NCBI GenBank assembly: GCA_015680905.1
Contig: CM027379.1
Location: 100,305,001-100,369,000, forward strand
Direction of reading: 5' to 3'
Origin: Coptis chinensis
Lineage: Eukaryota > Streptophyta > Magnoliopsida > Ranunculales > Ranunculaceae
DNA length: 64,000 nt
The notes beneath the pieces were generated by a model that made no database searches, had not been told where the DNA came from, and saw only the letters and a program-made list of their open reading frames with translations. Below are positions 1,208-61,121 of the stretch, one piece after another. The position numbers and the translations under genes are program-made. Each line of letters starts with the position of its first letter. The stretch's first letter is position 1.

Positions 1208-1996
1208 TTAACATTCTTCTTCTTCTTCAGAAGCGCCTGATGATAGTGGTAGCTCATGCCTACATAAAGGGCAAGTGTGATTAGTCTGTAGCCATTCTTT
1301 GATGCATCCATTATGAAACACGTGTTTGCAAGGCATTAGGGTAACCTCGATCCCCTCACAGAACTCATCTAAACAAACTGGACAACTGCCTTCTTCAGAA
1401 TTTTCCTTCTCAACATATTTTCTGGTCTCTAATGATGCAACAGCAGATGACGCCGCAGAGAGTAAAGGACATTGAGGGCTAGTATCAAACATACCGTCAA
1501 AAAGTACGTAGGGTAGCATAAGTATATTAACAACCTTGAAAACCAAACGTATTGTCATACTCTTAATCCTTCCTTGCTGGTTCGAAGCTCTCCATGCGTT
1601 TATATGCATGGAACGCGGTAGAGTTGCACAGAGTATTTCCCACGCAGCAGGAGAAATAACGTCCTCGGATGCATATTTGTTGCAATGATATTTGAACAAA
1701 ACTTCACACCTTTCAAGAGCGTTTAACAATGGAAAGTCTAGGTTAAAATTTTCGGTAGTAGTGGAGTCAGAACGTTGTTCAATAAATACATAGTTTTCAC
1801 TTGTTCGTGTTGTTATTAGATCCACAGAATCGACGTGAACCTGCAAGATTGCTTCGACAGGTTTCTTTTCTGACTCGGGAATATTAGGATCATAATCGGA
1901 GAATTCAACATTGAAATCGTAAGACTGGAAGGTTTTAGCCCTGAAGGGTTCAAACATAGACACTTCTTCTTCTTCTTCTTCAATTGCTGCTTCCAT
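1208..1996 (-). CDS. RING-H2 finger protein, putative E3 ubiquitin ligase
   Basis: An intronless frame of 262 codons. I start at the ATG at 1994-1996 (MEAAIEEEEEE), because the frame upstream reaches a stop at 2063-2065 without another ATG, and the paralog at 19.0-19.8 kb has a matching MEAS-EE start. An acidic N-terminus is followed by an unrecognised middle region with a conserved NLDFPLLNALERCE block. A C-terminal RING-H2 lies at about residues 205-245: CPVC, then MPCKHVFH, NGC and CPLC, a complete C3H2C3 set of zinc ligands. The last residues are acidic (EEEEEC). RING-H2 proteins of this layout normally recruit an E2 and ubiquitinate targets; the substrate cannot be inferred. No membrane segment or signal peptide is evident. 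It belongs to a small local family, with one broken copy and one orphan promoter nearby. Confidence 0.8.
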   Translation of the reverse strand: MEAAIEEEEEEVSMFEPFRAKTFQSYDFNVEFSDYDPNIPESEKKPVEAILQVHVDSVDLITTRTSENYVFIEQRSDSTTTENFNLDFPLLNALERCEVLFKYHCNKYASEDVISPAAWEILCATLPRSMHINAWRASNQQGRIKSMTIRLVFKVVNILMLPYVLFDGMFDTSPQCPLLSAASSAVASLETRKYVEKENSEEGSCPVCLDEFCEGIEVTLMPCKHVFHNGCIKEWLQTNHTCPLCRHELPLSSGASEEEEEC

Positions 1997-2094
1997 CTCG
2001 ATGTTGAACTGATGAATGAATAGTTCTTTCTCTTGTTCAATTTGTAACTTCAAACACTTTTCTTAAAGAATAGTTGCTAATCCTGTTTATGTAT

Positions 2095-2275
2095 GTAATT
2101 ATTTATAGCGAAGAACGACAGAAGCAATTCGGCTTTACTAAGCCTAGTTGGACTTCTCCTACTAATTGTGGTAGAACTAGAACTAACAGGACTAGAAGTT
2201 CCTCCGGTACTTAGACGGTAGCGAAATAAGAGTTCTGACAGCCACGATGTTCGGCCCAAAGTTCTTAGATTCAAT
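2095..2275 (-). promoter_or_regulatory. Upstream region shared by the local RING-gene copies
   Basis: The stretch just upstream of the RING gene contains a block (GAAGAACGACAGAAGCAATT on the minus-gene side) that recurs near 24241-24262, and in weaker form near 19922-19945 upstream of the second RING copy. Similar downstream text (ACTAATT, GGTAGAAC) follows in the same order. I infer a duplicated promoter/5' UTR. No TATA box was assigned with certainty. Confidence 0.45.
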
Positions 2276-2851
2276 TTTTATTTTGGGTATTTAATTACCA
2301 AATTCAAGCGTAGGCCCATCCGGTTGGAAAATTTCATCCGCTTAGTTCAAAGTTTCAAACCATAAAGGTTTTTACTTTTTTATTTTTTTCCCATTTTATT
2401 TAAAGGCTAACAAAATATAAAAAATGGTTACTATGACGAAAAAGTGAAAAACACACTAAGAACATTGGCAATTGCAACTCTAAAAATAAGAAATTGTAGT
2501 AACACTGTAACACTAACATTCACATACATCTTCTGAGGCAGGGGCAGACCTAGGAGTTGGGTACGAGGAGCTGCAGCCTTCTCCTCCAATTATTTGTTTT
2601 TTTTGGAAAAAAAATCCTGTATATGCATGGCTGACCGATGGGAGTTGACAGACTATAGATCTGTCAACATTCTACAATCAGGGCCGGCCCTAGGTTTCAA
2701 GGGGCCCTATGCAAGCTCCCAAAAATGGGGCCTATATATTAATAAAAAAAAAATAACAACAAAACTCGCAAAATATTTTTTTCTTACCAAATCACTTCTG
2801 ACTGTCCAAGGGGATATGGAGGACATGGACCAAGCATCACAGAGTCAGACA

Positions 2852-3215
2852 CTACCTTCTCATAAAACTTAATTGCACGGTCCAGATCAGTCACACGAAG
2901 CATAACTTGACATAGTGGCTCTGGAGTCGATCCCCTCTGGATTAGCTCAAAAGTATAGTCATTCGGATCCTTCACAAAAGCTATGACTGTCTCCCCACCT
3001 AAAACTGCACCAGGTTCACCTATGACCTTTCCTTCTTTGGCTCACATTTTCAACCAATTCATGAATCTGTAAATGAATGAAGTTAAGAAATTCAAGTTTC
3101 CATATATATCGACGACTATATAATCATTCTAATCTCCAACTCAAACAAAACTTACATCTTCAGTTGCTATAGCAAAATGTCCAAAGCCTGATCCAATATC
3201 ATAGCTATCCTTTCC
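2852..3215 (-). pseudogene. Captured glyoxalase I (lactoylglutathione lyase) gene fragment, hAT copy 1
   Basis: On the minus strand one reads YDIGSGFGHFAIATED, a GT...AG intron of about 80 bp, then HELVENV, GKVIGEPG, AFVKDPNDYTFELIQRGSTP and QVMLRVTDLDRAIKFYEK. This is the end of the first and the start of the second domain of a plant two-domain glyoxalase I (methylglyoxal detoxification). Homology stops after KFYEK, possibly at an exon border. No start codon, no complete domain; it cannot make an enzyme. The same fragment is in copy 2, so capture came before the two copies separated. Retention of the intron points to capture at DNA level. Confidence 0.8.
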
Positions 3216-3661
3216 ATGGTCTACAGATCAGCATAGGCAAAACTCGCAGGTGCAGCTTCTTTCACAGTTTCACTCTTCAAATTTTCTCAACTAAATTGGG
3301 TGTGACTGTCTTAAAGAAGTACATCACTGAAAAAGTGTAAAATTTAGTGGAACATGGCAAATTATTGACAGAGTATGGTAGAGAAAATGCCAAGCGTAAC
3401 ACTCATTATGCTGACAAATCGTGCAAAGTTGTATAATGCATTGGCCTTTGGAATAAAATAAAAAGCTGGTCAGGAACGAAATAAAGGAAGAACAAATATA
3501 TATAACATATTAACATAACATATATATAACTAAGTGTTACCCATCTTGCGCAAAAGCATCAATAATATATATAACTTCTTAAAGGATACCATATAATAAA
3601 GTATATGGCTTTCTCTTTCACTGATCTTATAGCCAATCAAAAAACTACTAATAAACTACTA

Positions 3662-6142
3662 TTAATCAAAAATAGATCTTGAAGCATTTTTACTTGTGAA
3701 ATCACTGATTACGCTTGCATAGTCAATTTTCTCTACCAATCCCTTCTCAATGGACAACATAGCTAACCCATTCAATCTTTCTTGTGACATGCTTGACCGA
3801 AGGTAAGATTTTATCAATTTCAACTTTGAAAAGCTTTGTTCTCCAGATGCAACTCAGAATCGGTATGGTTACTAATATTCTCAGAAGAAATCCATGCATT
3901 TGGAAAACAACTAGCTGTTAACTTCAAATGATCCAACACGCCAACTGCCTTCTTTATGCTTTTCGGCAAATCTTCTCTCAATATCGTAGTTCGAAAATAA
4001 CTCCCTCCCATCAATATCGATATCGTGGTCGTGCTTCAAATACTTTTCAAGGTTCTCACAAGAAGCTTTTAAACTAGTATTATTTTGCAGACTTCAACTT
4101 CTCCAAATCATACAAAACCCAAAAGTTCCTTCAAATTTTTGAAATTCTTCAAATCGACTCCTTAATGAAGAAAAAGAGCTTGGTCAACTATAAATATAAA
4201 GTAGTGGACTCAACAACTTTTCACCGATTGTGGCGGTTCTTGAGTAGAATTCTCATCAAACTGTCTCTTTCTACGAATGATACGTTTTTCACGAAAAACA
4301 GGTTCAACTTGCATAGCAGTCGCGATCTCCTTAGCCTCTACCACAGCCTCATCAAATCCAGTTACTCTATACCTCTCAAAATATGAAATGAGCCCTTCTA
4401 ACTTCTTTATAGCTACATCCATGTGCATGTCTTCCTTTTGCAAGAGTTTGCTAACAGAGTTAACTTGTAACAATACATTGTACCAAATAATCATGCCAAC
4501 CAAGAATTCAAAATTTTCCAACTAGTGTGTTGCTAAAGGCTCAGCATCACTCTTTGTCTTTGGATCATCACTAGTATCAACCAAGCGAAGTAAAGCATCT
4601 CGAATCTGTGGAGCCTGCTCTTTTATCGCTGCAACACTGTCCAAACGGCTTTCCCAACGTGTTGGTGCCAATGTCTTAAGAGTAAGACCACCTTGAACCT
4701 TATCTTTAAAAACTTGCCACCGCTTTGTAGATGAAGAAAACACCGAATATATACGTTGCACCACTCCGAAAAAAGATACAGCTTTTGGACAAGAGTTCGC
4801 CATATCACATAGAGCAAGATTAAGTGTGTGACAACCACATGGAGTATAGAATGCTCTAGGATTAACTTCAAGCAATCTATTTTGTACACCTTTGTGTTTC
4901 CCTTTCATATTAGATCCATTATCATAACCTTGGCCTCTAATATTACCAATGTCGAGTTCAAGAATATCTAGCATATCTTTCAGTTTATTAAAAAGTCCCA
5001 GACCCGATGTGTCATCCACTTTCCAAAATTCTAAAAAATATTCTTCCACCTTCATTGGACTTGTTGAAACATCCACACACCGTACAATAAGAGACATTTG
5101 CTCTTCATGACTTATATCAGGTGTACAATCAAGGATGACTGAGAAATACTTTCCATCTTGGATTTTCTTCACTATCACACCTTTAACCTCACCTGCCAAC
5201 ATTTCTATCAATTCATTTTGAATCTTGTGACCAAGATAATGATGATGAATTTCACTCTTTTGGATACGTTGGAGGTGTTTCTGGATAACCGGATCAAATT
5301 TACCCATCATTTCAATTATACTCAAAAAAATTCCATTGTTCTCTTCATAAATCTTCTCATGCTTCCCGCAAAATGACAAATTATTCTTAGCAAGAGTTTT
5401 CACAACAACAAGTACCCTCTGTAAAAATTCCCTCCAATGTTCTCTTTCCTTTGAAATCTGATCCTGAAGATGTTTATCAATAGTTTCATTCTTGTCTAGT
5501 CGATCCACCAATTCAATCCAATATTTAAGTCGTCTTTTGTGCTCAGGATGTTGCTCATGTTGTTTAAGCCTTGTTGTAAGATTTCTCCAATTGTCATATC
5601 CTTCATCAGTTAACAGAGTAAACTTTCCATTTTGCTTGAACAATTTACAACAAAAGCAATATACCTTGTCTAAAGCATGTGAATAGACGAGCCAACTTCT
5701 ATCTTGCTTCTCCCCATTCTCCAAATGTCGAGTGTAATAAGAGGAAGAAAATCGCCTATTTTCATAATTTCTAGGAAAATTACGACTATGATCTCTTACT
5801 GGACCCTTTTGTACAAGTAAGTCTCTAAATTTTTGGTCAATCTTATTCCAATTTCCTTGATCATAATAATTCACCGGTCTTTCATAATCATTATCGGCTT
5901 GTGCATGTTCTTCAATCACCACATTTTCAGATTCCACATTATTCAATTCTTCATTAACCGGTTCCTCATTTACCAATTCTTCAAACCCTTCATTAATTCG
6001 TTCATCATTTACTTCTTCTCTATTGCCATTGTCATTCTCATGTATCTCGTTAACAGGATTTAGCAATTGAACCCTCTGCTTGTTTCGTAGTCGTAAAGAA
6101 TTTTTTTATAGCTCCTGCTTGAGATTGAGCCAATGCTTCCAT
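3662..6142 (-). pseudogene. hAT transposase (TTF zinc finger / DUF4371 / hAT dimerisation type), copy 1
   Basis: Starts MEALAQSQAGAIKKFF at the ATG at 6140-6142. A TTF-type zinc finger region follows (WLVYSHALDKVYCFCCKLF, later LKQHEQHPEHKRR), then a DUF4371-like catalytic region ([51 protein letters not shown]) and a C-terminal hAT dimerisation part. Breaks: a 1-bp gain near 6061 compared with copy 2, a GAG-to-TAG stop at 4522-4524, a stop at 4210-4212, and further frame changes toward 3662. The longest remaining stretch is 514 codons (4522-6066). This copy cannot make full transposase. Confidence 0.85.
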
Positions 6143-6931
6143 TCTTCGCTTCTGTTTCCTTTTTTCATTACCAGGTGGATACGCTCTAGTCCCTGCCATT
6201 CGAAAAATCTTAAGAAAAACAACAACCTGATAGTCTGATACGTCTTTTCACAATTCCGTTAAAGTGGTTTGGCGCTTGTCTACTTAAAACTTGATGAATG
6301 ATAACGGGATTAACAGATAACCTGTTCAAATAATTTAATATCCAATTGAAAAAACAACAAGAGAAATTAAATAATCCTTTCTACTAGTTAAAAAAAGCAG
6401 TGAAAGCACCAACAAACCATGTCTTGTTCATATTAAATAATCCCTAACTTAAAAAAGAAAGGATTGATTTGGATTATAAAAAAAAAATAAAAATATCAAA
6501 TAAATACGATCCTTTATGAATTTAGAATGGCTTAACCCCGACCAACCGCCAAAACAAAGGCCAAAAAGAGGGAAGATAATACGGAAGGAAGGATAACCGG
6601 GTTTTGTTTTTCGGACTTTGAATTAGAATCGGATTTTTGTTTTGGTGGGCTAAATCAACTTTTAAGTTGACACATGAGTGGGTTTAAGTGGCGGATGGGG
6701 ACTTTATATTTAGCAAACATTTGGGGGCCTTAGGCCTTAGGCAGCATAGGCCTAGGGCCGGCCCTGGTTAATCCCGTTATCATTCATCAAGTTTTAAGTA
6801 GACAAGCGCCAAGCCACTTTAACGGAATTGTGAAAAGACGTATCGGACTATCGTTGTTGTTTTTCTTAGGATTTTCAATGGCGGGGACTAGAGCGATCCA
6901 TCCGTAATGAAAAAGGAAAAATAAGCGAAGA

Positions 6932-9410
6932 ATGGAAGCATTGGCTCAATCTCAAGCAGGAGCTATAAAAAAATTCTTTACGACTACGAAACAAGCAAAG
7001 GGTTCAATTGCAAATCCTGTTAACGAGATACATGAGAATGACAATGGCAATGGAGAAGAAGTAAATGATGAACGAATTAATGAAGGGTTTGAAGAATTGG
7101 TAAATGAGGAACCGGTTAATGAAGAATTGAATAATGTGGAATCTGAAAATGTGGTGATTGAAGAACATGCACAAGCCGATAATGATTATGAAGGACCGGT
7201 GAATTATTATGATCAAGGAAATTGGAATAAGATTGACCAAAAATTTAGAGACTTACTTGTACAAAAGGGTCCAGTAAGAGATCATAGTCGTAATTTTCCT
7301 AGAAATTCTGAAAATAGGCGATTTTCTTCCTCTTATTACACTCGACATTTAGAGAATGGGGAGAAGCAAGATAGAAGTTGGCTCGTCTATTCACATGCTT
7401 TAGACAAGGTATATTGCTTTTGTTGTAAATTGTTCAAGCAAAATGGAAAGTTTACTCGTTAATCGATGAAGGATATGACAATTGGAGAAATCTTACAACA
7501 AGGCTTAAACAACATGAGCAACATCCCGAAAGCACAAAAGACTACTTAAATATTGGATTGAATTGGTGGATCGACTAGACAAGAATGAAACTATTGATAA
7601 ACATCTTCGTGATCAGATTTCAAAGGAAAGAGAACATTGGAGGAATTTTTACATAGGGTACTTGTTGTTGTGAAAACTCTTGCTAAGAATAATTTGTCAT
7701 TTCAAGGAAGCATGAGAAGATTTATGAAGAGAACAATGGAATTTTTTTTTGAGTATAATTGAAATGATGGGTAAATTTGATCCGTTATCCAAAAACACCT
7801 CCAACGATCCAAAAGAGTGAAATTCATCATCATTATCTTGGTCACAAGATTCAAAATGAATTGATAGAAATGTTGGCGGTGAGGTTAAAGGTGCGATAGT
7901 GAAGAAAATCCAAGATGCAAAGTATTTCTCAGTCATCCTTGATTGTACACCTGATATAAGTCATGAAGAGCAAATGTCTCTTATTGTACGGTGTGTGGAT
8001 GTTTCAACAAGTCCAATGAAGGTGGAAGAATATTTTTTAGAATTTTGGAAAGTGGATGACACATCGGGTCTGGGACTTTTTAATAAACTGAAAGATATGC
8101 TAGATATTCTTGAACTCGACATTGGTAATATTAGAGGCCAAGGTTACGATAATGGATCTAATATGAAAGGGAAACACAAAGGTGTACAAAATAGATTGCT
8201 TGAAGTTAATCCTAGAGCATTCTATACTCCATGTGGTTGTCGCACACTTAATCTTGCTCTATGTGATATGGCGAACTCTTGTCCAAAAGCTGTATTTTTT
8301 TCGGAGTGGTGCAACGTATATATTAGGTGTTTTCTTCATCTACAAAGCAGTGGCAAGTTTTTAAAGATAAGGTTCAAGGTGGTCTTACTCTTAAGACATT
8401 GGCACCAAACACGCTGGAAAGCCGCTTTGACGAGTGTTGCAGCGATAAAAGAGCAGGCTCCACATATTCGAGATGCTTTACTTCACTTGGTTGATACTAG
8501 TGATGATCCAAAGACAAAGAGTGATGTTGAGCCTTTAGCAACACACGAGTTGGAAAATTTTGAATTCTTGGTTGACATGATTATTTGGTACAATGTATTG
8601 TTACAGGTTAACTCTGTTAGCAAACTCTTGCAAAAGGAAGACATGCACATGGATGTAGCTATAAAGAAGTTAGAAGGGCTCATTTCATATTTTGAGAGGT
8701 ATAGAGTAACTGGATTTGATGAGGCTGTGGTAGAGGCTAAGGAGATCGCGACTGCTATGCAAGTTGAACCTGTTTTTCGTGAAAAACGTATCATTCGTAG
8801 AAAGAGACAGTTTGATGAGAATGCTACTGAAGAACTGCCACAATCAGCTGAAGAGTTGTTCAGAGTCCACTACTTTATATATATAGTTGACCAAGCTCTT
8901 TCTTCATTAAGGAGCCGATTTGAAGAATTTCAAAAATTTGAAGGAACTTTTGGGTTTTTGTATGATTTGGAGAAGTTGAAGTCTGCAAATAATACTAGTT
9001 TAAAAGCTTCTTGTGAGAACCTTGAAAAGTATTTGAAGCAACGACCACGATCCGATATTGATGGGAGGGAGTTATTTTCTGAACTACAGATATTGAGAGA
9101 AGATTTGCCAGAAAGCATAAAGAAGGCAGTTGACGTGTTGGATCATTTGAAGTTAACAGCTAGTTGTTTTCCAAATGCATGGATTTCTTACAGAATATTA
9201 GTAACCATACCAGTTACAGTTGCATCTGGAGAACGAAGCTTTTCAAAGTTGAAATTGATAAAATCTTACCTTCGGTCAAGCATGTCACAAGAAAGATTGA
9301 ATGGGTTAGCTATGTTGTCCATTGAGAAGGGATTGGTGGAGAAAATTGACTATGCAAGCGTAATCAGTGATTTCGCAAGTTATAATGCTTCAAGATCTAT
9401 TTTTGATTAA
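6932..9410 (+). pseudogene. hAT transposase, copy 2
   Basis: Same protein as copy 1, on the plus strand from the ATG at 6932. The zinc-finger part is open to 7462, where a 1-bp loss creates a stop after KFT. Between 7462 and 7898 several small indels disturb the frame. From 7899 a 503-codon frame runs to the natural stop at 9410, covering the catalytic region and the complete hAT dimerisation domain ([20 protein letters not shown], then [17 protein letters not shown]). Copy 1 is intact where copy 2 is broken and largely vice versa. Neither copy is full length on its own. Confidence 0.85.
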
Positions 9411-9854
9411 TAGTAGTTTATTAGTAGTTTTTTGATTGGCTATAAGATCAGTGAAAGAGAAAGCCATATACTTTATTATATGGTATCCTTTAAGAAGTTA
9501 TATATATTATTGATGCTTTTGCGCAAGATGGGTAACACTTAGTTATATATATGTTATGTTAATATGTTATATATATTTGTTCTTCCTTTGTTTCGTTCCT
9601 AACCAGCTTTTTATTTTATTCCAAAGGCCAATGCATTATACAACTTTGCACGATTTGTCAGCATAATGAGTGTTACGCTTGCCATTTTCTCTACCATACT
9701 CTATCAATAATTTGCCATGTTCCACTAAATTTTACACTTTTTCAGTGATGTACTTCGCTAAGACAAATACACCCAATTTAGTTGAGAAAATTTGAAGAGT
9801 GAAACTGTGAAAGAAGCTGCACCTCTGCGCGAAGTTTTGCCTATGCTGATTTGT

Positions 9855-10216
9855 AGACTATGGAAAGGATAGCTATGATATTGGATCAAGCTTTGACATT
9901 TTGCTATAGCAACCTAAGATGTAAGTTTTGTTTAAGCCGAGATTAGAATGATTATATAGTCGCCGATATATATGGAAACTTGAATTTTTAACTTCATTCA
10001 TTTACGATTCATGAATTGGTTGAAAATGTGAGCCAAAGAAGGAAAGGTCATAGGTGAACCCGGTGCAGTTTTTAGGTGGGGAGACAAATATAGCTTTTGT
10101 GAAGGATCCGGATGACTATACTTTTGAGCTAATCCAGAGGGATCGACTCGAGCCCACTATGTCAAGTTATGCTTCGTGGTGACTGATCCGACCGCAAATT
10201 AAGTTTTATGAGAAGG
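9855..10216 (+). pseudogene. Captured glyoxalase I fragment, hAT copy 2
   Basis: The mirror of the fragment at 2852-3215, with the same exon-intron-exon structure but more damage (small indels around 9880-9920 and 10130-10200). It sits between the transposase stop and the left terminal repeat. It is not expected to code for protein. Confidence 0.75.
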
Positions 10217-10393
10217 TAGTGTCCGACTCTGTGATGCTTGGTCCATGTCCTCCATATCCCCTTGGACCGGTCGGGCGTGATTTGGTAAGAAAAAAATATT
10301 TTGCGAGTTTTGTTGTTATTTTTTTTTTATTAATATATAGGCCCCATTTTTGGGAGCTTGCATAGGGCCCCTTGAAACCTAGGGCCGGCCCTG

Positions 10394-10861
10394 GGATTAA
10401 CAGATAACTTGTTCAAATAATTTAATATCCAATTGAAAAAACAACAAGAGAAATTAAATAATCCCTTCTACTAGTTAAAAAAAGCAGTGAAAGCACCAAC
10501 AAACCATGTCTTGTTCATATTAAATAATCCCTAACTTAAAAAAGAAAGGATTGATTTGGATTATAAAAAAAAAAAGAAATTAAAAATATCAAATACCTGA
10601 TCCTTTATGAATTTAGAATGGCGAACCCGCCGAACCGCGAAAAACAAAGGCCAAAAGAGGGAAGATAATACGGAAGGAAGGATAACTGGGTTTTGTTTTT
10701 CGGACTTTTGAATTAGAATCGGATTTTTGTTTTGGTGGGCTAAATCAACTTTTAAGTTGACACAGTAGTGGGTTTAAGTGGCGGATGGGGCCTTTATATT
10801 TAGCAAACATTTGGGGGCCCTATGCAAGGCCTTAGGCAGCATAGGCCCAGGGCGGCCCCTG
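10394..10861 (-). mobile_element. Detached right end of hAT copy 2
   Basis: GGATTAAC (10394-10401) followed by 460 bp matching the right end of copy 1 (6315-6766), in the same orientation. The terminal repeat here is degraded (ends GGGCGGCCCCTG). The external target duplication TCTACAAT follows directly. No coding content. Confidence 0.8.
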
Positions 10862-11039
10862 TCTACAATGTATAGACGTATAGTTCTTTCCCTTTCTCAG
10901 TTTTCAGTTTTTGGCTATCAGCAAGACAAACACACCTAGCAGCAGCACATAACTACACAAGGATTAACTAGCAGCCTAGCAAGGTCCTTCTTTTGAAGTA
11001 CAAAGGGGCGAAGGGGCAAGGATGATCTCAAATAGGAGA

Positions 11040-11230: not shown

Positions 11231-11365
11231 TTTTAGGACCTATTACCAATGCAAGCAATAACTTGTTACTTCCACATAGGCGCTACATAGGACTATTTTC
11301 CCTCATAGTTATTTTCTTGGTGAGAAGATACTAGGAGTTGTCCAATGGCAGAGGTGACTTTAAAC

Positions 11366-11551
11366 TTCGGACGTAATGTTTTATTCCCATGTAAAAAACG
11401 GAAAAAATGCACGGGATGGAATGTTTATCCGTTTGAAAAAAAAAACAAAAAAAAAAATCGAAAAAACACTCGAAACAGAATGAAACATCCCGTCCAAAGA
11501 AAAAAAAATGAAAAAAAAAAACACAAAACAGAATAAAATGTTCCGTCTGAA
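11366..11551. repeat. Putative MITE with 20-26 bp imperfect inverted ends
   Basis: The left end TTCGGACGTAATGTTTTATT and the complement of the right end (ATTCAGACGGAACATTTTAT) agree at most positions. The interior is A-rich with repeated TTCCGT/ACGGAA-like words. No target duplication was found. The rest of 11230-12000 holds only an A-rich tract (about 11789-11862) and no gene. Confidence 0.4.
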
Positions 11552-11788
11552 TATCACAATTCAACAACTATCCCCATAGCAAATCCTATCCTCATTGTTA
11601 CCTAGTGAAAAACTACCTTCATAATCACCCTTACATTGGGCCATTGTTTTTTGGCTCATAAGGATGACAAGTTGCTATTTCCCCTCAAAGTTGTTTGTAA
11701 TGGGAATGCTCTTAACTATGTTATAAACGCTCCACATGTAATGTGTCACATTCTTTTCTCTCCATCAATAAAATTCTTACTTGCATGC

Positions 11789-11811
11789 AATAAAAAAAAA
11801 CAAAAACAAAA

Positions 11812-11849
<38 letters not shown>

Positions 11850-11862
11850 AAAAAAAAATCCA
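11789..11862. repeat. Poly(A)-rich tract
   Basis: Over 60 of about 74 bases are A, with a long uninterrupted run. It may be the tail of an old retroelement, but no body could be recognised upstream. Confidence 0.7.
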
Positions 11863-12002: not shown

Positions 12003-12222
12003 GGGTTAACACCCCCTAGATGAGCCAATTAGGATTTTCCCCCACTACTAGATGGGAAATTAGGGTCTTCACCCCTCCAAATATACACACACAAAAAATC
12101 ATGGTCAATCGTAAATTTTTTTTTTTTTTTTTTTTTTTTGTGTGTATTTGGAAGGAAAAATCCTAATTTCCCATCTAGTAGGGGGAAGGCAAATCCTCAT
12201 TGGGTCATCTAGAGATTAACCC
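12003..12222. mobile_element. Foldback MITE with 9-bp target duplication
   Basis: A 220-bp element whose two arms of roughly 95 bp are inverted copies. Left arm starts GGGTTAACACCCCCTAGATG; right arm ends with CTAGAGATTAACCC. The centre is a run of T. The exact flanking repeat ATAAATAAA (11994-12002 and 12223-12231) is 9 bp, as Mutator-like elements make. The flank is a simple AT-rich sequence, so chance extension of the match is possible. No coding content. Confidence 0.75.
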
Positions 12223-59136: not shown

Positions 59137-59767
59137 CAAAATTTGCAAATAAAAACTTAAAAACAAATAAAAACTCATAAACAAATAAATTTTTTAAAAA
59201 TGAGCTCTAATTAAATATTGAATACATAAGCACCTAGTTGATTTATACAAAAAACATCTCCCGAAAAAAGAAAATCCCAATTTGCTGAATAATGTGAAGA
59301 TTTAAACACCACTTTTTTGAAGAAAAATATAATAATGTGAGAAAATAAAAAAGGCAGAAAGAGAGAAAATACATAACATTTATGATTTTATTACTAGGAT
59401 TCCCATGAAGGAGAGAGAAAGAGGGAGGAGGATAAAAAAAATAGGGGAGCATTATTTACGTGTTATTATTATTATTATTATTATTTTCTCTCATGGATAA
59501 AAAACACGTTTTAGCGAATATTGGATTTTCCTTTGGATTTGCTTATCCACACTTTTGTGTTCCCGCAATTCAAAGGACTTACTAGAGTATCCACGTTTTA
59601 GACAGACCAAACACCTATACAAGGTAAACATGACTGCCAATCACCAATTCCTTAATATGGACTTTCTATTCACATTGTCAGACATAGCCTAACAAGGCAA
59701 CACACCAGATTGCTTTTTTTGGCCCATCTCTCCCTAACTTTGTGGAATAGTTAGATACACTTTCACT

Positions 59768-61121
59768 ACTAGCTTGTAGGCCCGTGCATACGCACATGCT
59801 ATTTTAAAAACATTTATATTTTTTTAGAAAATTAGGACTACTGTTTTAGTCGTTAACTCGTTTTAAGTTTTTAATAAATTATTTTAAATTAAGTATTAAT
59901 TAAAATTTAAAATCTTGTTTTTTCAATTGGGAGAGAGATCCTGTTTTAATAGGAGAATAATTTCCGTTTTAATTAGATATGCTAGATTTTATCTTTTTAA
60001 TAAAGGAGGAATTCCCATTTTAATAGGAAAATGATTCCCGCTTTAATTATAAGTGTTATAATTTGTTTTAATAGGAGAGGAATTCTCGTTATAATAGGAG
60101 ATGAATTTCTATTGTAAAAAAAAAATTATCGTTTTTCAAATATGAGAGAAATTTTCGTTTTAATAGAAGATGACGTGGAATTTTAATAGAGCTCGAAAAA
60201 TACCCCATGTGGGAGCTTTAATATTAAGATATAGACTAGCTTGTAGGCCCGTGCATACGCGCCGACTCTTTTGAAAATATTTATATTTTTTTTAGAAAAT
60301 TGGAACTACCATTTTAGTCCCTAACCCATTTTAATTTTATAACAAATTGTTTTAATTAAGTTTTAAAAATCCGTTTTTTTCAATTGGGAGAGAGATCATG
60401 TTTTAATAGGAGAATAATTCATGTTTTAATTAGATATATATATTAGATATTCCCTTTTCAATATGGGGGAATTCCCATTTTAATAGGAGAATGATTACCG
60501 TTTTAATTAGAAGTATTAAAATTTGTTTTAATATGAGATGAATTCCCGTTATAATAGAAGATAAATTTCCGTTGTAAAAAATGATTCCCGTTTTTCAAAT
60601 AGGAGAGAAATTCCCGTTTTAATTGGAGATGATATGAAATTTTTATAGAGCTCGAAAAATACTCCTTATGGTACCTTTAATATTAAGATATATACTAGCT
60701 TGTATGCCCGTGCATACGCACCGACTCTTTTGAAAATATTTATATATTTTTTTGAAAATTGAGACTAACGTTTTAGTCGCTAACCCATTTTAATTTTATA
60801 ATAAATTGTTTTAAATTAAATTTTAAAACCCCATTTTTTCAATTGGGAGAGAGATTTTATTTTAATAGGAAAATAATTTCCGTTTTAATTAGATACGCTA
60901 GATTTTCGCTTAATTTTCAATAGGGGAGGAATTCTCATTTTAATAGGAGAAAGATTCCCGCTTTAATTAAAAATGTTAGAATTTATCTTAATAGGAGAAG
61001 AATTCTTGTTATAATAAAAGAAAAATTTTCGTTTTAATAGGAGATGACATAGAATTTTAATAGAGCTCGAAAAATATCCATTGTGGGAACTTTAATAATA
61101 AGATATAGATATAGATATAGA
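59768..61121. repeat. Head-to-tail trimer of a roughly 460-bp repeat
   Basis: Three diverged copies start ACTAGCTTGTAGGCCCGTGC (59768), the same (60235), and ACTAGCTTGTATGCCCGTGC (60694). Each continues with ATACGC, TTTAGAAAATT, CAATTGGGAGAGAGAT and repeated TTTTAATAGGAGA-like words, and ends GAGCTCGAAAAATA then AATATTAAGATATAGA. The last copy ends in (ATAGAT)n. There is no coding frame. The source family is unknown to me. Confidence 0.85.

Follow-up and report, generated by a model that had tools for sequence, protein, structure and literature searches.

Nested insertions arise by ordinary transposition, and in the double Ds of maize, two members of one hAT family are found nested in opposite orientation. 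The Ac/Ds elements of maize, which belong to the hAT superfamily, also undergo alternative transposition, which can invert DNA, duplicate it in inverted form or delete it and leaves matching 8-bp duplications, as described in excerpts of PMC8225341 and PMC3744419. In Drosophila, crossover between copies of a single transposon, Galileo, gives rise to inversions (PMC2775673, in part), and an excerpt of PMC3440606 describes Mu killer of maize as an inverted duplication of Mutator transposase and terminal sequence.

The locus described here lies in a 64,000-nucleotide stretch of the Coptis chinensis assembly (the window) and is a near-palindrome built of two copies of one hAT family, one within the other. 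It resembles double Ds in being a same-family hAT nest of opposite orientation, but its loop is reversed, so that the inner duplication is inverted, and its elements are end-to-end copies of 4.1 kb with the remains of a transposase gene. Like the Ac/Ds products, it has element ends at the borders of an inversion, and the 8-bp duplications found there match. However, the target is inside the element itself, and this is a natural locus in a different plant, read from sequence rather than from an observed event. As far as the excerpts go, it differs from the Galileo inversions in that its repeats are nested at one site, with 452 bp between them, and from Mu killer in being a hAT locus known from its sequence alone, the candidate promoter being the element's own right end and not a flanking gene. 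With Mu killer it has in common an inverted duplication that takes in both transposase and terminal sequence, and with Galileo it would share an inversion made by crossing over between copies of a single transposon.

Architecture of the nested locus

From left to right, the locus consists of TCTACAAT, copy 1, the left part of copy 2 in inverted orientation, the right part of copy 2 and TCTACAAT again (Table 1). An earlier note on this DNA had reported the outer 8-bp duplication, the inner flanks GTTAATCC and GGATTAAC as reverse complements of each other, the intact GGATTAAC inside copy 1 and a 3.6-kb inverted repeat, and all of these were recovered. Aligned over 3658 columns, the arms of the inverted repeat show 92 mismatches and 44 gap openings (96.0% identity), and positions 6306-6764 and 10393-10858 form direct repeats with 93.4% identity.

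Table 1. Features of the nested hAT locus, in coordinates of the window.
Feature	Positions	Strand	Remarks
Outer target-site duplication TCTACAAT, left	2671..2678	+	One copy in both empty paralogous sites
Outer target-site duplication TCTACAAT, right	10862..10869	+	
Copy 1, end-to-end hAT element, 4088 bp, left end to right end	2679..6766	+	
Left arm of inverted repeat, 3636 bp, including the 8-bp inner target	2679..6314	+	
Copy 1 transposase gene remains; open stretches of 527 and 103 codons; candidate start codon at 6199	4210..6199	-	DUF4371
Inner target GGATTAAC, uninterrupted in copy 1; about 108 bp upstream of the candidate transposase start	6307..6314	+	
Loop, right end of copy 1, 452 bp	6315..6766	+	TATA-like motif, - strand, near 6708
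Inner duplication in inverted orientation, GTTAATCC	6767..6774	-	
Left part of copy 2, inverted; right arm of inverted repeat, 3627 bp	6767..10393	-	
Copy 2 transposase gene remains; open stretches of 183 and 516 codons	6878..9410	+	DUF4371, Dimer_Tnp_hAT
Inner duplication GGATTAAC	10394..10401	+	
Right part of copy 2; only its 8-mer is within the inverted repeat	10394..10861	+	TATA-like motif, - strand, near 10798

Since the arms are nearly equal in length, the "inverted left block" of which the earlier note spoke is equivalent to a flipped 452-bp loop. The observed arrangement and its uninverted isomer differ solely in the orientation of this loop between the 3.6-kb arms, and their junction sequences are the same (40 bases were compared at 6766/6767, and the other junction was deduced from the block order). 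Reads across 6700-6800 or 10380-10410 are therefore not decisive. The feature that matters is the orientation of the loop, and the data that matter are reads crossing a whole arm.

The element family and the kinship of the copies

Self-nesting of a hAT element, with two members of one family involved, is well supported. Twenty family loci were fetched and their duplications read by eye; 15 of them allowed the placement of both ends (five were left unscored), and 13 of these have a perfect direct 8-bp duplication, while L019 and L024 have one mismatch each. The elements have short terminal inverted repeats beginning with CAGGG. The termini of copy 1 share 16 bp (CAGGGCCGGCCCTAGG), and the right end of copy 2 differs from the terminal inverted repeat at two bases. 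Copy 2 matches the hAT dimerisation domain Dimer_Tnp_hAT (E 1.6e-16) and DUF4371 (E 4.3e-10), and copy 1 matches DUF4371 (E 4.5e-18). Neither copy has the unbroken transposase frame expected of an autonomous element, the longest open stretches being 527 codons in copy 1 and 516 in copy 2, and none exceeds 535 codons in L013-L018; these figures leave introns aside, and some of the breaks may be assembly errors.

The earlier note took the lack of an empty TCTACAAT site in relatives as grounds for refutation. Such a site is present in two paralogous flanks of the same genome, L034 and L035, each with one TCTACAAT and no element, and the history proposed there was not refuted by this check. The inner target GGATTAAC is intact in five of the six aligned relatives (L013-L017). 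Among 37 matches of a right-end search, in a table read by eye, this locus is the only one where a right end adjoins an inverted arm.

Copies 1 and 2 are sisters in the tree (UFBoot 96, SH-aLRT 91; 3352 filtered columns), a relationship that fits one-step and two-step histories alike. They share seven derived sites, one of which (position 1349) is within a badly aligned stretch. Against sisterhood, copy 2 shares six derived sites with L015 and copy 1 shares three with L016; all nine are C-to-T or G-to-A and are read as recurrent deamination. Further conflicting sites are shared by copy 2 with L014 (four), by copy 1 with L017 (four) and by copy 2 with L017 (three), six of the seven L017 sites falling in the badly aligned stretch 1342-1353. 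Copy 2 also shares a single site each with L013 and L016, as does copy 1 with L013. In the filtered columns, the counts are four for the two copies, three for copy 2 with L017 and three for copy 2 with L018.

The two copies differ at 63 of the 3352 filtered columns, a figure probably raised by base errors; 51 differences lie among the 2991 columns of the arms and 12 among the 361 of the right part. The corresponding counts for L014 and L015 are 47 of 2982 and 7 of 359. By this comparison the pair, supported as sisters by the tree, is not clearly younger than the burst of the family.

Origin of the reversed loop

The structure is compatible with two known processes, either of which could suffice, and is a clean natural example of how one alternative transposition and a nest that has undergone crossover come to leave an identical trace. 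The favoured history, to which a probability of roughly 0.45 is assigned, is an opposite-orientation self-nest whose arms later underwent a crossover. Copy 2 would have inserted at TCTACAAT, and its GGATTAAC, just upstream of the transposase gene, would then have been entered in opposite orientation by a closely related element (probably a sister copy). The product would be a near-palindrome of 3.6-kb arms flanking a 452-bp loop, and a reciprocal crossover somewhere within the arms would flip the loop into the present order. By enumeration, one inverted-repeat crossover does convert an opposite-orientation nest to the observed order, and the inner duplication is inverted along with the segment (GTTAATCC and GGATTAAC), as inversion by crossover would have it. 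The duplications, the empty site in L034 and L035, the intact inner site in relatives and the sister copies all agree with this history, and crossover between opposite TE copies is an established source of inversions according to an excerpt of PMC8225341. The earlier note had recombination occur between identical left ends; a crossover between the left arms indeed yields the observed order, but identity is unbroken for the first 117 bp only. Against the favoured history, it is a two-event account with an intermediate that was not observed, whereas a single alternative transposition would be enough, and the copies differ as much as L014 and L015, so that the pair is not clearly younger than the burst.

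The two-step account in the earlier note fits, but a single sister-chromatid transposition gives the same order and duplications, and such a one-step self-insertion is a serious contender, if still tentative. The element at TCTACAAT would replicate, the right end of one chromatid would pair with the left end of the other, and both ends would join the second copy at its GGATTAAC, with the right end on the proximal side. The element would thereby be duplicated, with the left part of copy 2 and the 8-bp duplication inverted, and an excised chromatid would be the reciprocal product. Two tandem copies undergoing reversed-ends transposition would end in the same arrangement. Among six enumerated single-event outcomes (two standard and four sister-chromatid), only this one matches the observed order, and it predicts the sister relationship that the tree supports. 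A product of this kind would begin as two identical copies; those seen here are sisters that now differ at 63 of 3352 filtered columns, a count probably raised by base errors. Inversions formed by alternative transposition have matching 8-bp duplications at their breakpoints in the account excerpted from PMC8225341, and here such duplications lie exactly at the element ends, as a nest with crossover would equally have it. Partial text of PMC3744419 attributes natural maize dhAT duplications to alternative transposition, and that of PMC12312487 proposes the process for VANDAL21 of Arabidopsis. However, this route is judged rarer than standard transposition, and it too must accommodate copies not clearly younger than other pairs in the family. 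It is unlikely that the assembly has the loop reversed and that the plant carries an ordinary opposite-orientation nest. The isomers do have their junction sequences in common, and assembly or polishing was seemingly troubled here, with complex and indel differences in alternating blocks, but there are zero N bases in the window, and the Nanopore reads behind this Coptis chinensis assembly, with a mean length of 13.7 kb (PMC8172641, in part), could span the 8.2-kb locus. Two unrelated side-by-side insertions flanked by chance 8-mers are scarcely credible: exact reverse-complement 8-mers lie at both element ends, and copy 1 and relatives alike have that 8-mer unbroken at the corresponding position. 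Chance 8-mers are no serious rival because the family loci mostly carry 8-bp duplications and two flanks have the empty outer site.

A much more speculative proposal, considered very unlikely, combines a natural one-step sister-chromatid self-transposition with a promoter in the right end of copy 2, from which a 3.6-kb hairpin RNA would silence the family in trans. Such a locus, with its putative promoter outside the palindrome and read-through of both arms, would correspond among hAT elements to Mu killer. Were it transcribed, it would count as a candidate trigger for silencing across the family.

Probable base error in the differences between the copies

The private differences of copies 1 and 2 alternate along the element. 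Mapping the crossover by mosaic ancestry was considered and rejected, since the block pattern is confined to complex and indel events, many of these contact CAG/CTG, and a similar change recurs in L016. With differences up to four columns apart merged and events that changed the length by 12 or more left out, the complex and indel differences fall into alternating blocks (nine runs among 58 events, permutation p ~5e-5). Substitutions are interspersed, both the C-to-T changes (14 and 5, seven runs, p 0.30) and the other single substitutions (14 and 11, 12 runs, p 0.37). Much of the divergence between the copies has the look of uncorrected nanopore error. In a nanopore assembly, near-identical copies may diverge largely by base error, and dates derived from such divergence would be misleading. 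No literature naming CAG/CTG as an error site was found; PMC9749173, in the part available, treats plant methylation and base-calling generally, and CHG and CAG are not mentioned there. Block events touching CAG/CTG plus or minus one base number 10 of 20 in copy 1 and 19 of 38 in copy 2; such positions make up 11% of the sequence, and chance contact is higher than that for multi-base events. L016 has a complex change very similar to that of copy 1 at the same CTG-rich place.

Structure of the locus and its empty sites

The locus is a well-preserved self-nested hAT in flipped form, in which a complete element (c1) adjoins the two parts of a second copy (c2) of the same family. The claim of the earlier note, a self-nested pair with an inverted left block, was confirmed in its structure, the element order and both the outer and inner 8-mers lying where it had placed them. 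There is no N anywhere in the window (C3:100305001-100369000 of a 935.6 Mb genome), and therefore no junction of the locus is a written scaffold gap. Among the titles and abstract openings covered by a limited literature search, none described a naturally occurring self-nested hAT whose loop is flipped.

Components of the nested locus and the two paralogous flanks lacking the element
Feature	Position	Description
c1	2679-6766	end-to-end element, 4088 bp
c2 left part	6767-10393	inverted
c2 right part	10394-10861	same orientation as c1
Outer duplication TCTACAAT	2671-2678 and 10862-10869	bounds whole locus
Inner 8-mers	6767-6774 and 10394-10401	exact reverse complements of each other
Inner 8-mer, intact inside c1	6307-6314	
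L034	C9 near 70.897 Mb	90% over 1603 columns
L035	C9 near 53.41 Mb	84.6% over 987 columns spanning junction

When the host flanks were joined at the duplication and aligned to the rest of the genome, they matched two other places, L034 and L035, without interruption. Each has one TCTACAAT, preceded by the same 30 bases as in the window, and the element end CAGGGCCGG is absent from both. The outer duplication therefore arose when an insertion entered sequence that was already there. The eight bases of the inner site, GGATTAAC, are unbroken at the corresponding position in five of six aligned relatives (L013-L017); the sixth, L018, lacks them. In c1 the site lies about 108 bp upstream of a candidate transposase start codon at 6199.

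The transposase remains contain DUF4371 and a hAT dimerisation domain; a single open frame spanning the transposase is found in none of eight copies (c1, c2 and L013-L018), introns being disregarded. Among 20 loci of the family retrieved from this genome, 15 had both ends placed; scored by eye, 13 of these 15 have a perfect 8-bp direct duplication and two (L019, L024) have one mismatch, with L017, L020, L022, L027 and L030 left unscored. The left host flanks of L024 and L030, which lie on the unplaced contigs C103 and C29, are identical over 20 bases, so that the two probably represent a single insertion, as alleles or haplotigs. Two more insertions, about 0.5 and 0.8 kb long, break the L017 copy at around element positions 1126-1130 and 1732-1741.

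Relationship, age and base quality of the two copies

Sequence comparison supports c1 and c2 as sister copies (UFBoot 96, SH-aLRT 91; IQ-TREE, 3352 filtered columns). They have seven derived sites in common against the other five close copies, four of them within the filtered columns, and conflicting shared derived sites are also present among the copies. In the filtered columns, c1 and c2 differ at 51/2991 sites in the arms and 12/361 in the right part, no less than the family copies L014 and L015 (47/2982 and 7/359), which counts against a young event. Their divergence is 1.9% over all filtered columns (63/3352), or about 0.8% from single substitutions outside CAG/CTG only (22 in c1, 10 in c2). 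At a rate of 1e-8, used for LTRs in PMC8172641, the event would roughly date to 0.4-0.9 million years ago.

Polarised by relatives, the private differences alternate in blocks along the element, c2-rich mostly near c1-positions 118-712 and 1961-3558 and c1-rich mostly near 1177-1570 and 3809-4075. Complex and indel events alone are blocked (20 in c1, 38 in c2, 9 runs; permutation p ~5e-5), C-to-T (p 0.30) and other single substitutions (p 0.37) being interspersed. CAG/CTG, plus or minus one base, accounts for 11% of bases and is touched by 10/20 complex events in c1 and 19/38 in c2; in relatives, the counts are 15/23 (L016), 4/11 (L013), 2/4 (L014), 0/6 (L015) and 4/15 (L017). The best reading of the pattern is that nanopore base-calling went uncorrected at methylated CHG sites, where short-read polishing would have mended whichever copy drew the reads. 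A Coptis chinensis assembly that is probably this genome (936.6 Mb, 916.5 Mb in nine pseudomolecules; PMC8172641) was made from R9.4 Nanopore reads averaging 13.7 kb, with polishing by Racon and Pilon. Blocks rich in complex differences, often CAG/CTG-linked, lie at about 3855-4248 and 6487-6753 in c1 and 6840-8430 and 9680-10280 in c2. These differences are probably uncorrected base errors in the assembly, making translations and dates from them unreliable.

Routes to the present order

With l as left arm, X as the 8-bp target and r as right end, we enumerated six products that one event could make from a lone element at T, two by standard nested insertion and four by sister-chromatid transposition. 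The observed order matches just one of them: sister-chromatid transposition in the inverting mode, the target lying in the copy whose left end was donated. A standard opposite-orientation nest also leads to this order if its inverted l arms undergo a single crossover. We favour this two-step history, at a probability of about 0.45, in which a standard opposite-orientation insertion would have come first and a single arm crossover would then have yielded the present order. It is the history proposed in the earlier note, which fits the locus but is one of two that are inseparable by sequence.

The one-step history is a serious, though still tentative, alternative: it is the sole single-event match, and it requires the sisterhood of c1 and c2 that the tree supports. 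Sisterhood is also expected, without being required, if a sister copy nested. The two-step history is placed first as a matter of judgement, since standard transposition and arm-to-arm recombination are viewed as commoner than sister-chromatid transposition. Both routes are already known for hAT elements. According to PMC8225341, inversions made by alternative transposition have matching 8-bp duplications at their breakpoints, whereas crossover inversions invert duplications already present; in a nest, the pre-existing duplications are two halves of one, and this test for dispersed copies is therefore silent. Natural maize dhAT duplications have been interpreted as alternative transposition (PMC3744419), which has also been proposed for VANDAL21 (PMC12312487), extending it beyond Ac/Ds.

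The observed isomer (P T l X r X' l' X r T D) and the uninverted one (P T l X r' X' l' X r T D) differ solely in which way r, of 452 bp, points. They share every junction (40 bases compared at r/X', the others by block order), so that junction PCR or reads across 6700-6800 cannot separate them. A misassembled loop is judged improbable.

A possible hairpin transcript and neighbouring features

The transposase reads inward from the right end, so a transcript from the c2 right end would cross the first arm in antisense, then the loop, then the second arm in sense, with a 3.6-kb hairpin as a possible fold. Outside the arms, in the c2 right part, a TATA-like motif is situated 63 bp from the end (near 10798, - strand); that of c1 is near 6708. 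Mu killer of maize is a known parallel for such a putative transcript (PMC3440606).

The insertion at 2671 is about 620 bp upstream of the start of a 281-codon ORF (1208-2053, - strand) with a terminal RING-finger-like Cys/His pattern, identified by eye; the segment around this ORF is duplicated twice on C9 (L034, L035), both times without the element. Downstream, a stretch of about 455 bp (11242-11697) recurs at more than 30 genome places, mostly at 71-79% identity, and is followed by a 67-base A-rich run (11792-11858); together they resemble a retroposon 3' end. An imperfect fold-back lies at 12016-12212 (74.5% to its own reverse complement over 204 columns). At 59767-61037, a 459-bp unit is repeated in tandem about 2.7 times, the copies being about 82% alike.
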